Under the pieces are notes generated by a model. The model saw only the letters and a list, made by a program, of their open reading frames with translations. It was not told the DNA's origin and did not search any database. Made by a program: the position numbers and the translations under genes. This document shows, in pieces, positions 5,706 through 48,554 of a stretch of 48,554 nt of DNA. The stretch covers positions 1-48,554 of the forward strand of contig CAJJBK010000042.1 in assembly GCA_905182415.1 (NCBI GenBank). The letters are read 5' to 3'. This stretch comes from an uncultured Woeseiaceae bacterium. GTDB taxonomy: Bacteria; Pseudomonadota; Gammaproteobacteria; Steroidobacterales; Woeseiaceae. Position 1 is the stretch's first letter; each line of letters opens with the position of its first letter.

Positions 5706-6734
5706 TTATCGATTAATACTTTGAAAAAAATTGGCTGGCAAGCGATTAAACATGGCTTGATCTTGATTGCAGAATTTTAACCCCATAGACCAATCTACCA
5801 ATAATGACTCGTAGGCCATTTGTAAATTATAAGAACCTTGTGGTTGATTGCGTAATTTGTAGATAGTATCTAAAAAAATAAATAAATTTAATTTATCTAT
5901 CTTACTTAACATTAATATATCTGACTCACCTCCTATCGAGGATCCCGATCCAAAAGACTGATGGATTAGAGTTGCCACAAAATCAGCGAGCCAGTCCAAT
6001 ACAAAGTGAGGCTCTTCCTTGCTCCATTTTGCTGCCAACTGGATGGGTGATTCTTTTTTATGCAATAACTCAATAAATTGTTGCTTGAATACCGGTATCT
6101 TTTTAAATTCTTCAACCTTACTTAATGCTAATAATGGATGCTCAATAAGATGTTTGGGCAATTCATCCCAGCTCAATGTGTCATTTGCATCTTTTAACCA
6201 TTGGATAGCATCGACCGTGGAGGGTTTATTTATATTCAATTGCTGACAGCGACTTCTAATTGTTGCTGGTATATTCTGCATACGATCCACGATTAATATA
6301 ATAAGCGTATTACCACTCGGTTCCTCTAGCGTCTTGAGCAAACTATTAGTCGCATTTACAGTCATTGCATTTGCTGGCTCAATTATTGCAACCTTTCCAA
6401 CACCTAAATAGCTTGTCTTCGATAATTCTTCGGTAAGCGCTCTAATTTGATCAACACTAATTGAGGTTTTACCGTCATTCGGAGAGACACGATGAATGTC
6501 TGCATGCTCATGATCGTGGCGTGGATGAATTGGAAATTCTGTGGTCGGTGAAATTCGCAAAAATTTCTCTATCTTCCATTCCGCTAATGATCTTTTACCA
6601 ATTCCAGCAGATCCTGATAACAACAAAGCATGTGGGATCTGATTGTTTGCAATTTGGGTTACCCATATTTTTTGCTGCTCTCGATACCAAGGAATATCGG
6701 CGACTTTTGATTGTTTTGTATTATTATTGGTCAC
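5706..6734 (-). CDS. holB: DNA polymerase III subunit delta-prime
   Basis: Part of the clamp-loader complex that opens the beta clamp on primed DNA. The AAA+ fold is visible: a P-loop-like GSAGIGKRS (41-49), sensor-type segment NATNSLLKTLEEPSG (127-141) and the SRC arginine-finger motif (161-163), giving the delta-prime assignment. The zinc module that follows the first helix in E. coli delta-prime (four cysteines) is replaced by a cysteine-free His/Pro-rich stretch (FPIHPRHDHEHADIH, about 67-81). The start is GTG at 6734, overlapping the tmk stop in GTGA, so translation is probably coupled. Length 342 is usual. It is the last gene of mltG-tmk-holB. Confidence 0.9.
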   Translation of the reverse strand: MTNNNTKQSKVADIPWYREQQKIWVTQIANNQIPHALLLSGSAGIGKRSLAEWKIEKFLRISPTTEFPIHPRHDHEHADIHRVSPNDGKTSISVDQIRALTEELSKTSYLGVGKVAIIEPANAMTVNATNSLLKTLEEPSGNTLIILIVDRMQNIPATIRSRCQQLNINKPSTVDAIQWLKDANDTLSWDELPKHLIEHPLLALSKVEEFKKIPVFKQQFIELLHKKESPIQLAAKWSKEEPHFVLDWLADFVATLIHQSFGSGSSIGGESDILMLSKIDKLNLFIFLDTIYKLRNQPQGSYNLQMAYESLLVDWSMGLKFCNQDQAMFNRLPANFFQSINR

Positions 6735-7357
6735 TCTAATAACCGATCCAAATGAAATAAAATTTCAGCTTGAACTAATTTTAACGATTGAGATGCATCA
6801 ATAACAACAAATCTATCTTTATGCTCGTTAGCAAGCTCTAAGTAGCCTTGTCTAACACGCTCATAAAATGAAATATCTTCAGTTTCCATACGATCGATAG
6901 AACCCCTATTTTTAGCTCTTTGCATACCTATTTCTGCTGGAGCATCTAGTAAGATTGTTAAATCAGGTTGTAATTTTTTTTGTACCCAGGCAGCGATTAT
7001 ATTGATATCTTTAACATCAAAGCCACGACCGTAACCTTGATATGCAATAGTAGCGTCAGAAAAGCGATCACAAATTACATAATGCCCTTGGTTAATTGCG
7101 GGCTTTATTAAATTCTCTATATGAAAAGATCTGGCAGCAAAGAATAGGAGTAATTCTGCGATCTCTGGAACAGTCTCACCCTCTGTATTCAAGAGAACTC
7201 GCCTTATCTCTTCGGCTGTCTTCGTGCCACCGGGCTCTCGAGTTTCTATAGTAGTTATATCTTTGCTTTTGAGGTAATTGGATATAAATTCAATATTTGT
7301 TGACTTGCCAACACCTTCACTGCCTTCAATGGTTATAAATTTTCCTGTCATATTCAT
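6731..7357 (-). CDS. tmk: Thymidylate kinase
   Basis: Phosphorylates dTMP to dTDP with ATP, an essential step in dTTP synthesis. It shows the P-loop GSEGVGKST (12-20), REPGGT (dTMP-phosphate contact), the DR motif in CDRFSDATIAYQGYGRG, and a basic LID segment RAKNRGSIDRME as in class II enzymes. The 208 residues match the family. ATG at 7357 is preceded by AAGTAGG; a second ATG two codons on is possible. It begins 2 nt after mltG and overlaps holB by 4 nt, a gene order common in gammaproteobacteria. Confidence 0.96.
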   Translation of the reverse strand: MNMTGKFITIEGSEGVGKSTNIEFISNYLKSKDITTIETREPGGTKTAEEIRRVLLNTEGETVPEIAELLLFFAARSFHIENLIKPAINQGHYVICDRFSDATIAYQGYGRGFDVKDINIIAAWVQKKLQPDLTILLDAPAEIGMQRAKNRGSIDRMETEDISFYERVRQGYLELANEHKDRFVVIDASQSLKLVQAEILFHLDRLLE

Positions 7358-7359
7358 AC

Positions 7360-8361
7360 CTACTTTTCTTTGCCTTCTTTGAATTTGATTTTATCAAGAT
7401 ATTCCTTAACAGCAAGATTATGTTCATCTATATCTTTTGAAAATTTATGTCTTCCATCTTCATCGCCAGTAGCAACAAAATATATGTACTCTTCATCGCT
7501 TGGGTTGAATGCAGCACGGATTGAATCTCTTCCAGGCAGCGCAATGGGTGATGGTGGAAGGCCCTTTCTAGTGTACGTATTGTAAGGGGTATCAAGGCGA
7601 AGATTACTTCTAGTTAGATTCCCATCAAATTTAGATCCCAAACCATAAATTACCGTTGGATCTGTCTGAAGTCGCATATTTAGCTTTAAACGTTTAATAA
7701 AAACACTGGCTATTCTTGTCCTCTCATCTGCAACTGCAGTTTCTTTTTCTATTATTGAGGCCAAAATAAGCCCCTCATAAGGAGAATAGAGGGGTAAATT
7801 GTCAGCACGATTATTCCATTCTTCATTGAGGGCTTTCAGCAAAGAATTATGTGCATCTTGAAGCACCATTGCAATTGGAGTTGACCTTGGAAATAAATAC
7901 GTTTCAGGTAAAAATAAACCCTCTATATTTGCCTTGGAAGCAAACACAAAAGAATCAGCACTTAGTTGATCCCAATCGATATTTAGATTTAAATTTAAAT
8001 CTACATCCTTATCAGCAAATATTACTGAAGCTCGGAGATCTTGCTCTAACTCACTCGCTGTCAATCCCTCTATGATTGTGAAAGGATGCAAAAAAACTTC
8101 ACCTGTTATAAATCTATCAATAATTAATGATAAATTTGTGACCCCTTCAAGCAAATATTCACCAGCTTGAATTTTTGTTCCTTTTTTGGTCAGTCTCGCG
8201 TAGATCTTCAAGGGAAGGATATTTTCGACGAGACCTTGTTTTTTTAGTTTTATTAGGACTTCACTGAAATTCTCACCAGATTTAATTTCAAAAAAAATTG
8301 GCTTATCGTTGAAATCAATCGTCGAAAATAACATTCTGTAAAAAAGCAAGGCAGCTACCAA
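7360..8361 (-). CDS. mltG: Endolytic murein transglycosylase; true start probably upstream at a non-standard codon
   Basis: MltG cleaves nascent peptidoglycan strands and limits glycan length, anchored in the inner membrane by one N-terminal helix. The YceG/LytM-type domain is clear: EGLILASIIEKETAVADER with catalytic Glu205 (numbered from TTG 8361), then MRLQTDPTVIYGLG, YNTYTRKGLPPSPIALPG and the tail YFVATGD. The only standard start after the in-frame TAA at 8434-8436 is TTG at 8361, which would cut the membrane helix in half. The open frame upstream encodes QVIKLSIVAIIAVLLVAALL, a complete helix with a basic N-side. Initiation at ATT 8421 or ATA 8427 would give 353-355 residues, closer to the usual 340 or so with a full anchor. 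An ATG at 8463 is in the same frame but reads only nine codons before the TAA. Confidence 0.9.
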   Translation of the reverse strand: MVAALLFYRMLFSTIDFNDKPIFFEIKSGENFSEVLIKLKKQGLVENILPLKIYARLTKKGTKIQAGEYLLEGVTNLSLIIDRFITGEVFLHPFTIIEGLTASELEQDLRASVIFADKDVDLNLNLNIDWDQLSADSFVFASKANIEGLFLPETYLFPRSTPIAMVLQDAHNSLLKALNEEWNNRADNLPLYSPYEGLILASIIEKETAVADERTRIASVFIKRLKLNMRLQTDPTVIYGLGSKFDGNLTRSNLRLDTPYNTYTRKGLPPSPIALPGRDSIRAAFNPSDEEYIYFVATGDEDGRHKFSKDIDEHNLAVKEYLDKIKFKEGKEK

Positions 8362-8500
8362 TAAGACTGCAATAATGGCAACGATAGATAATTTGATTAC
8401 TTGAAGTTGATTGATTAAAATTTTTATTCTCTGTTAGTTGAAACTCATCCCGCAAAGCTTCATGGCTATAGACGTTTCTTTATATTTGAATATACAACAA

Positions 8501-8526
8501 AAAAACGCCTCTGATGAGGCGTTTTT
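8501..8526 (-). terminator. Rho-independent terminator after acpP
   Basis: ACGCCTC pairs with GAGGCGT around a four-base loop, flanked by A and T runs on both sides, so it can act in either direction. On the minus strand it ends in a run of T. It sits 45 nt after the acpP stop and separates acpP from mltG-tmk-holB, which therefore need their own promoter in the next 70 nt or so. Confidence 0.88.
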
Positions 8527-8571
8527 AATAATACTTAAAAGAATAAATTATTCTTTCATCTATCCCAATAG

Positions 8572-8811
8572 TTAAACAGATTTATGTGCAGTCACAAAGT
8601 CTATAGCTTGCTGAACAGTGGTAATCTTTTCAGCATCTTCGTCAGGAATCTCAGTATCAAACTCTTCTTCTAATGCCATTACCAATTCTACTGTATCTAA
8701 TGAATCAGCACCCAGATCATCAACGAAAGAAGCTTCATTGGTTACTTCGTCGCCTTTTACACCCAGTTGCTCTGCAACAATACTTTTAACTTGCTCTTCG
8801 ATATTACTCAT
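8572..8811 (-). CDS. acpP: Acyl carrier protein
   Basis: Carrier of growing acyl chains in fatty acid synthesis. The 79-residue acidic protein has the phosphopantetheine attachment motif GADSLDTVE with Ser37, and the usual N-terminal [15 protein letters not shown]. The ribosome site AAGGAG lies 6 nt from the ATG, strong for this genome and in keeping with the very high expression of this protein. It lies 168 nt downstream of fabG, and a strong terminator follows at once, so fabF does not follow as it usually does in gammaproteobacteria. It probably has its own promoter in the fabG-acpP gap. Confidence 0.98.
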
Positions 8812-46626: not shown

Positions 46627-48554
46627 CTAATCTCTTAATTTAGCGAAAAATTTCTTTTCAAGTAAAATCACAGTTTTTGAAATAATCTCATCTGCAACAG
46701 TGTCTGTAAGGGTGCGTGATTTTTCCTGCAAAATCAAGCCCAAAGCGATACTTTTTAGTCCTTCTTCTATGTTATTTCCCTCAAAAATATCAAAAACCTT
46801 TATTGATTGAATAATTTCAGGTTCTATAAACTTAATTGACTTAATGATATCCGCTGCTTTTATGTCTTTTTTGACAGTAAAAGAGATATCCCTTCTTATC
46901 AATGGGTACTTAGAAATCGGCTTAACTTTTAGAGAAACACCAGGATAAGCACTTATAATATTCAACTCAAATAAATAAACATCTCGTTTAATAGAGAATT
47001 TTTTAGCTAAAACGGGGTGCAACTTTCCCACTGAGCCAATTTTCAAGCCATTGAGGAGTAATTTTGCTGATTGCCCTTGTTGCAAGGATGCATTGTTATC
47101 TGGTTCAAATTCGAATTCATTTTCTATTGTATCAAGGATTAAAATCGACTCCAAATCGCCTTTTATGTCGTAGAAATTCACGTTGATAGATTTTTCTGAC
47201 CAATGCTCACCTCTTAAAGGTCCCATAATTAGTCCTGCAACTTGCTCGATTTCTTGATGACCATCGTTAGTACTTTCAAAGATTTTACCAATTTCAAATA
47301 ATCTCACTCGATCCATTTGTCGGGCTACATTCCTAGATGCGACATTTAGCAGTCCCGGCCAGATTGAACCTCGCATTGTCGACATATCTTTAGATAATGG
47401 GTTTGCAAGTCTTAATTCTGATTGCTTACCTGTAATAAGCGTATTCACATCATCATCGATAAAACTATAAGTAATAACTTCTTGGTAGTCTCTAGTGCAT
47501 AAATGATTGGCAATTTTATCAATATTTTTTAAATCGTCATTCGGTAGAGAAAGTGATCTTGATGAAACCTCAGTTAGCTCAGGTATTTTATCAAAACCAT
47601 ATATCCTTGCCACCTCCTCGATTAAATCTTCTTCTATTTGAAGATCGAACCGATATGATGGCACGCTTACCTGCCAATCAATTTTATTTTCACGTATTTT
47701 AAAATTCAACCTTACCAATATTTCAGAAATTTTATTAAAATCAATTTTATGACCTAATATTCTCTCAAGACGACGAGAAGTTAATTTTATAGTTTTATTT
47801 TTTGGCAGATAATCTTCATTTTTAATATCGGTGACCTTGCCAGCATCGCCACCACAAATAGACAACAATAATTCACAAGCTCTATTTACAGCGATCTTTT
47901 GTATCCTTGGATCGACCCCCCTCTCAAACCTCAGAGAGGCATCAGTATGCATGCCATATCTTCGAGCCACTCCTGCCATTACTTCGGTAGGCCAATAGGC
48001 GGCTTCAAATAAAACTGATGTGGTGTTTAATGATACTGAAGTCGATAAACCGCCCATAATTCCAGCCATACCAATTGGTCCTGAATCGTCAGTGATTACA
48101 ACAGTGTCTTTTTTTAATTCGACCTCTGATTCATCAAGCAATACTAAATGCTCATCTTTTTTCGCAAATCTTGGAATTATTGTTCCATTTACTTTTGATA
48201 AATCATAGGCATGTAAGGGCTGTCCAAGCTCTATCATTACAAAATTAGTAATATCTACAACTGGGTTAATTGATCTAATTCCTGATTTCCTAAGTTTTTC
48301 AACCATCCATAAAGGAGTTAAAGCTTTATTGTCTATATTAATTATAGCCTGAGCTGCCAATCTCGGGCACAAATCAGGAAAGGGGGTTTTAATGGAATAT
48401 TCCACTTTTGCACTTGGTTTATTGCTAATATCAAATTTGTATTTAATATCTTCCTTACAAGTCCCTGCTAAATCCCTTGCAATACCCAAGACAGAGAAAC
48501 AGTCGCCACGATTAGGCGTCAAATCTAAATCAATTATACGGTCAGGTAATTTAA
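46627..48554 (-). CDS. pheT: Phenylalanyl-tRNA synthetase beta subunit, partial (N-terminus beyond window)
   Basis: Charges tRNA-Phe together with PheS. The frame is open to the window edge, beginning LPDRIIDLDLTPNRGDCFSVLGIARDLA, so about 150 N-terminal residues (including the tRNA-binding-like domain) lie outside; 642 residues are visible. The B3/B4 editing region (PVVDITNFVMIELGQPLHAYDLSKV), the B5 domain, the core GSIWPGLLNVASRNVARQ and the C-terminal anticodon-binding domain (SKYPLIRRDISFTVKKDI) are present. The TTG at 48522 is internal, not the start. Confidence 0.97.
   Translation of the reverse strand, partial: KLPDRIIDLDLTPNRGDCFSVLGIARDLAGTCKEDIKYKFDISNKPSAKVEYSIKTPFPDLCPRLAAQAIINIDNKALTPLWMVEKLRKSGIRSINPVVDITNFVMIELGQPLHAYDLSKVNGTIIPRFAKKDEHLVLLDESEVELKKDTVVITDDSGPIGMAGIMGGLSTSVSLNTTSVLFEAAYWPTEVMAGVARRYGMHTDASLRFERGVDPRIQKIAVNRACELLLSICGGDAGKVTDIKNEDYLPKNKTIKLTSRRLERILGHKIDFNKISEILVRLNFKIRENKIDWQVSVPSYRFDLQIEEDLIEEVARIYGFDKIPELTEVSSRSLSLPNDDLKNIDKIANHLCTRDYQEVITYSFIDDDVNTLITGKQSELRLANPLSKDMSTMRGSIWPGLLNVASRNVARQMDRVRLFEIGKIFESTNDGHQEIEQVAGLIMGPLRGEHWSEKSINVNFYDIKGDLESILILDTIENEFEFEPDNNASLQQGQSAKLLLNGLKIGSVGKLHPVLAKKFSIKRDVYLFELNIISAYPGVSLKVKPISKYPLIRRDISFTVKKDIKAADIIKSIKFIEPEIIQSIKVFDIFEGNNIEEGLKSIALGLILQEKSRTLTDTVADEIISKTVILLEKKFFAKLRD

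Follow-up and report, generated by a model that had tools for sequence, protein, structure and literature searches.

To our knowledge, only a few bacterial genes have established AUU or AUA start codons. The infC gene of E. coli, which encodes IF3, starts with AUU and regulates itself, and infC of other bacteria likewise has a conserved AUN start. The AUU start of E. coli pcnB reportedly limits the output of that gene, as Binns and Masters are said to have described in 2002. The initiator tRNA can read AUN codons in spite of their poor third base, and IF3 lowers the use of such codons. Two reports (PMC5472188 and PMC10158994) back this effect of IF3 on non-canonical starts; in the titration of the second, the AUU/CAU pair was one of the mismatches whose full-length share fell as IF3 was raised. 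According to PMC5472188, sigR of Streptomyces has a GTC start in 32 of 34 species and GTT in the other two, and is repressed by IF3. PMC13009471 describes two genes of S. aureus, ccpN (AUA) and cvfC1 (AUU), which gave about 10% of the activity of an AUG reporter in poor medium; ccpN reached up to 30% in rich medium, and the conserved non-canonical starts of this species were accompanied by extended Shine-Dalgarno (SD) sequences. In 36 groups of genomes, a switch to AUU was inferred for one of 61,358 ancestral AUG starts and for one of 5,080 ancestral GUG starts, as given in PMC5622118. Conserved near-cognate starts are already known as a class (infC, pcnB, sigR, ccpN, cvfC1). The mltG gene described here would be a new gene in this class, and none of the open-licence papers listed in our searches described such a start for mltG.

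The window, that is, the whole stretch of 48,554 nucleotides that was analysed, carries mltG on its minus strand, and the features of the locus are collected in Table 1. After the in-frame TAA the mltG frame reads CAG AGA ATA AAA ATT TTA ATC AAT CAA CTT and so on. The original prediction stated that the membrane anchor of MltG is encoded upstream of any standard start codon and that TTG 8361 splits the membrane helix. Our analysis agreed with this statement. TTG 8361 had also been called the only ATG, GTG or TTG; it is indeed the first, but TTG 8349 and ATG 8334 come later. The in-frame ATG at 8463, which had been said to read nine codons before the TAA, was found on the minus strand and gives MKLCGMSFN.

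Table 1. Features of the mltG locus in the window (SD, Shine-Dalgarno; G002, G007 and G006 are congeners)
Feature	Position	Strand	Remarks
mltG coding sequence as proposed, 353 aa	7360-8421	-	initiated at ATT 8421-8419; PF02618 and TIGR00247 matches
Proposed near-cognate start ATT	8419-8421	-	ATT, ATA and ATT in G002, G007 and G006
AGAGA, weak SD-like element, 6 nt before ATT	8428-8432	-	duplex -2.9 kcal/mol with an assumed anti-SD
In-frame stop TAA closing the mltG frame upstream	8434-8436	-	conserved in G002
First canonical start TTG, within the membrane helix	8359-8361	-	G002 likewise has TTG; G007 has GTG close to this place
N-terminal membrane helix	8344-8400 (about)	-	best 19-residue hydropathy segment
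Mini-ORF ATG...TAA, nine codons, in frame with mltG	8434-8463	-	G002 has a similar one, G007 a different one, G006 none
acpP (context)	8572-8811	-	ATG start, GGAGATAAAA-ATG; arrangement like AGAGAATAAAA-ATT of mltG; name from translation
Intrinsic terminator after acpP, separating acpP from mltG	8501-8526	-	conserved in four species
tmk (context), downstream of mltG	6731-7357	-	name from reading the translation

The product was matched by Pfam PF02618 (YceG) with 265.3 bits (cut-off, 32.4) and by NCBIfam TIGR00247 (MltG) with 269.6 bits (cut-off, 103.4), and it fell below the cut-off of the narrower model NF007619 (212.1 vs 532). Residue 9 was aligned with position 6 of the 347 positions of the NCBIfam MltG profile, so that the start of the profile falls near the AUU start. 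The stretch ASIIEKET is similar to the catalytic motif, and the glycan-cutting activity is putative. Counted from ATT 8421, the highest 19-residue hydropathy mean (2.96; 33 residues tested) was that of residues 8-26. Because this segment spans about 8400-8344, TTG 8361 splits the helix, and the helix of the window MltG is whole only with a start upstream of that codon. The best helix values calculated from the proposed starts were 2.96, 2.69, 2.64 and 2.25 in the window, G002, G007 and G006, respectively. The upstream start also adds lysines before the helix: one in the window and G002, two in G007 and three in G006.

The gene order continues from mltG to putative tmk and holB, named from reading the translations. 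The mltG gene directly follows acpP and its terminator (8501-8811). The usual neighbours in the interval between acpP and mltG are fabF and pabC, and both are absent from it here. Upstream of AGAGA, the leaders of the four species show little conservation. Folding of the leaders, judged by eye, revealed no structure common to all four, and one hairpin was common to the window and G002; the start site was 0.52-0.73 unpaired in the leader folding of the four species. A sigma-70 scan gave two sites against 1.8 expected, and an Rfam search of the window yielded only a tRNA.

The original prediction had proposed alignment with relatives, and we compared the start region of mltG accordingly. The search covered 60 genomes, the own genome included, and gave a match in 56; within the genus, 7 of 9 congeners (genomes 52-93% complete) had a match, and G003 and G008 had none. 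The start regions looked at were those of 30 loci (own included), of G005 and of 80 loci among the matches listed. Several metagenome-assembled genomes labelled Gammaproteobacteria or Woeseiaceae are included in the best named mltG matches among those listed. The identity of the congener proteins to the window MltG was 92% for G002, 67% for G007, 56% for G006, 53% for G004, 51% for G001, and 37% over a partial match for G005.

Four of the seven congeners (the window, G002, G007 and G006) have no ATG, GTG or TTG before the MltG helix. The TAA upstream is kept in the nearest relative, G002, and the other two have an in-frame stop 6 and 8 codons ahead of their near-cognate codon. In G004, G001 and G005 the first canonical codon is a GTG at approximately the same place as the near-cognate codon, and ATG is absent from this position in all seven congeners that have a start region. 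In the GTG-type genes L006, L007 and L112 we saw no SD match; TAAAAT stands 14 nt before the GTG in all three, and leaderless translation of the GTG-type genes is possible. We then counted this state over the matches listed: 110 loci, some species being represented twice, were tried, 107 were scored and 3 could not be aligned. In 5 of the 107 scored loci, no canonical start lies 32 or more residues ahead of the conserved FEI motif, and in the remaining 102 a canonical codon stands 36 or more residues ahead of it. The lack of such a start is thus more than chance. The five are the window, G002, G007, G006 and the locus of Alkalilimnicola ehrlichii AK92 (L085), which has an apparent indel. We rejected L085 as a parallel. 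It too is without an in-frame start by this count, but it has an out-of-frame ATG immediately ahead of a run of A, which makes an indel or an assembly fault likely.

We next consider which AUN codon would serve as the start. The TAA of the window and of G002 ends just four codons ahead of the position of ATT 8421, and initiation is therefore confined to a short interval. In the order window, G002, G007 and G006, the codons are ATA, ATA, TAT and ATA at position -2, ATT, ATT, ATA and ATT at position 0 (8421), and ATC, ATT, ATT and AGC at position +2. Thus, among the AUN codons located after the upstream stop and before the helix, only position 0 carries AUN in each of the four species. AGAGA is located 6, 6, 7 and 8 nt before the codon at position 0 in the same order; AACAGAGAAT is identical in the window, G002 and G007, and the AGAGA of G006 lies two alignment columns further upstream. 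The match of AGAGA is weak and not distinctive: its energy of -2.9 kcal/mol is equalled by that of TTG 8349 inside the helix, and a match as good at 5-9 nt was found for 139 of 984 internal ATT, ATA and ATC codons of the window's genes. These duplex energies are based on an assumed anti-SD; the 16S gene was found, and its anti-SD end was not seen in the piece examined. Taken comprehensively, AGAGA at a distance of 6-8 nt supports AUU 8421 as the start site but falls short of proof.

We also compared the codons upstream of the first canonical start, using codons 2-20 of the window, G002 and G007. Between the window and G007, there were 5, 1 and 11 differences at the first, second and third codon positions (7 synonymous and 5 non-synonymous codons), and between G002 and G007 there were 6, 3 and 11 (5 synonymous and 8 non-synonymous). 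The window and G002 differ at 1, 2 and 3 sites, respectively (3 synonymous and 3 non-synonymous codons), which are too few changes to tell. The excess at the third position is the pattern of a translated frame. The codon counts alone are not strong, because the synonymous and non-synonymous codons number 3 and 3 for the window and G002, and 5 and 8 for G002 and G007. The pattern KIL..QL...KL followed by the helix is common to all four species, down to G006 at 56% identity. Judging from these alignments, the reading frame of mltG is kept upstream of TTG 8361, most clearly in comparison with G007.

The four AUU/AUA species formed one group (82/85) in a tree of 17 MltG proteins whose bootstrap had not yet settled, and the three GTG species formed the neighbouring group (95/91). 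The path between the window and G006, taken as the sum of the printed branch lengths, is about 1.3 changes per column. From this path and the grouping of the four species it follows that the near-cognate state is old. Since the four species are one lineage, the state is to be counted as one event that was maintained, not as four.

To see how particular this is within the window, we compared 42 genes, picked by hand from 69 rows, with the contigs of congeners; mltG, two genes cut by the ends of the window and 24 rows taken as antisense shadow ORFs were kept apart. A frame conserved 8 codons or more ahead of the first canonical start was found in mltG and in 4 of the 42 genes, and each of these 4 overlaps the preceding gene at the conserved upstream frame. 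Thus, a conserved frame without a start is particular to mltG among the genes compared in the window. Among the rows kept apart, the end-cut gene at 46630-48552 and several putative antisense shadow ORFs were flagged as well.

Several other explanations should be weighed here. Translation may start at one of the canonical codons within the stretch of the helix, in the window at TTG 8361 or TTG 8349; this would yield a truncated MltG and make the upstream frame a 5' leader. The farthest canonical codon lies 24-28 residues before the FEI motif in each of the four species, and a gene finder limited to ATG, GTG and TTG would pick that codon and so shorten the anchor of the MltG that it reports for these genomes. 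The SD match of TTG 8349, at 6 nt, is as good as that of ATT 8421, the TTG of G002 has one of -2.1, and a start at the ATG of G002 would keep a fairly hydrophobic segment (best 19-residue mean, 2.34). However, the internal starts vary in kind and place (TTG in the window; ATG and TTG in G002; two GTGs in G007; GTG and ATG in G006), and SD matches were absent for TTG 8361, the ATG of G002, the GTGs of G007 and the GTG of G006, the ATG of G006 reaching only -1.2. Moreover, no hydrophobic helix is left from the first canonical codon in G007 (0.96) and G006 (0.84), the amino-acid sequence upstream of the in-helix codons is conserved, and the 102 other scored loci described above have a canonical codon farther from the motif. 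We therefore regard an internal start as unlikely. The original prediction had also listed a sequence error and a recent nonsense mutation. The window assembly is a draft in 73 contigs, and a fault or a loss of the start could be confined to this genome. But three further assemblies show the same state at 92, 67 and 56% protein identity, so that an error or a recent mutation is very unlikely, indeed close to negligible, and initiation at AUU or AUA, which had been the remaining option, is left as the best reading.

The N-terminus might also be made by stop readthrough from the mini-ORF of ATG 8463, or by a frameshift from an overlapping upstream ORF. In the window, G002 and G007, the distance from the end of an in-frame ATG mini-ORF to the near-cognate codon is 12, 12 and 18 nt, and a frame-2 TTG ORF is present in all four species, ending at +107, +11, -1 and +8 from that codon. 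In G006, however, a TTG ORF of two codons is the only in-frame upstream ORF after the terminator, and in G007 the frame-2 TTG ORF ends before the near-cognate codon. The mini-ORFs and frame-2 ORFs vary in start, length and peptide, except between the window and G002, and the leader that holds them shows the poor conservation mentioned above. We regard both routes as unlikely. A different near-cognate codon, ATA 8427 or ATC 8415, may be used in the window, where both are AUN codons. But ATA 8427 directly abuts AGAGA and is replaced by TAT in G007, and ATC 8415 is 12 nt from AGAGA and is replaced by AGC in G006; the use of either one appears improbable.

We consider it likely that mltG of this clade starts at a near-cognate codon, which would be AUU 8421-8419 in the window and AUA in one relative; the ATT, ATT, ATA and ATT at one aligned codon point to this reading. 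The ribosome would be placed by the weak AGAGA and by an A/U-rich site with low predicted structure, the initiator tRNA would read AUU with a mismatch at the third base, and the product would be a full-length, membrane-anchored MltG (MLINQLQVIK...). Since IF3 disfavours such codons, the output of MltG would be low and would rise when IF3 falls. By analogy with infC, pcnB, sigR and ccpN/cvfC1, AUU is probably a weak start that limits MltG and makes it sensitive to IF3.

We speculate that the start codon would stay poor because selection favours having little of a wall-cutting enzyme: the first canonical codon is GTG in the three sister species and ATG occurs there in none of the seven congeners. 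In E. coli, overexpression of MltG hinders growth at low osmolality and 42 C, according to PMC7481392. This defect gives a reason to limit the dose of MltG, and a low dose may be advantageous. For a wall enzyme to have kept a near-cognate start over about 1.3 changes per column would lengthen the short list of such genes, and such conservation would suggest that the MltG dose is under selection. More tentatively, and with considerable doubt, the dose of this wall transglycosylase may follow free IF3 and initiation capacity. Such start-codon control would link the cutting of glycan strands to the state of translation, possibly with reinitiation after the mini-ORF, which ends 12-18 nt upstream, in some species.

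We finally compared mltG with the known systems, including their counterparts in this genus. For infC, ATC stands at the usual start position in all six congeners with a match (L121-L126) in a search in which G006 gave no match and to which G007 and G008 did not belong. A TTG or GTG near the SD lies a few codons upstream of this ATC in five of the six, and an unread base hides the sixth. Because such codons lie upstream in most of them, we assign the ATC start by the habit of the family. The presence of ATC in all six makes AUN initiation plausible in these cells. The infC gene resembles mltG as an otherwise ordinary gene with a conserved AUN start. It differs in that its product is IF3 itself, so that infC is self-regulated, where mltG would be a target from outside; moreover, the infC SD in this genus is of the GGAG type, whereas mltG has only AGAGA.

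The E. coli pcnB gene is similar in that an enzyme gene has its output limited by an AUU start. In the window genome, however, pcnB appears to start with TTG, and the near-cognate start is found on mltG instead. The pcnB match of this genome (L131) contains one TGA and extends about 12 nt beyond the end of the open frame; this TGA is probably the natural stop. The S. aureus genes ccpN and cvfC1 share conserved AUA and AUU starts with mltG, but have extended SDs as against the weak AGAGA, and neither is a cell-wall enzyme. The sigR start is GTC rather than AUN, is served by the ribosome-binding site AGGAGGTG and was proven by experiment, while that of mltG is proposed from sequence; what the two genes have in common is a non-canonical start conserved across a genus.
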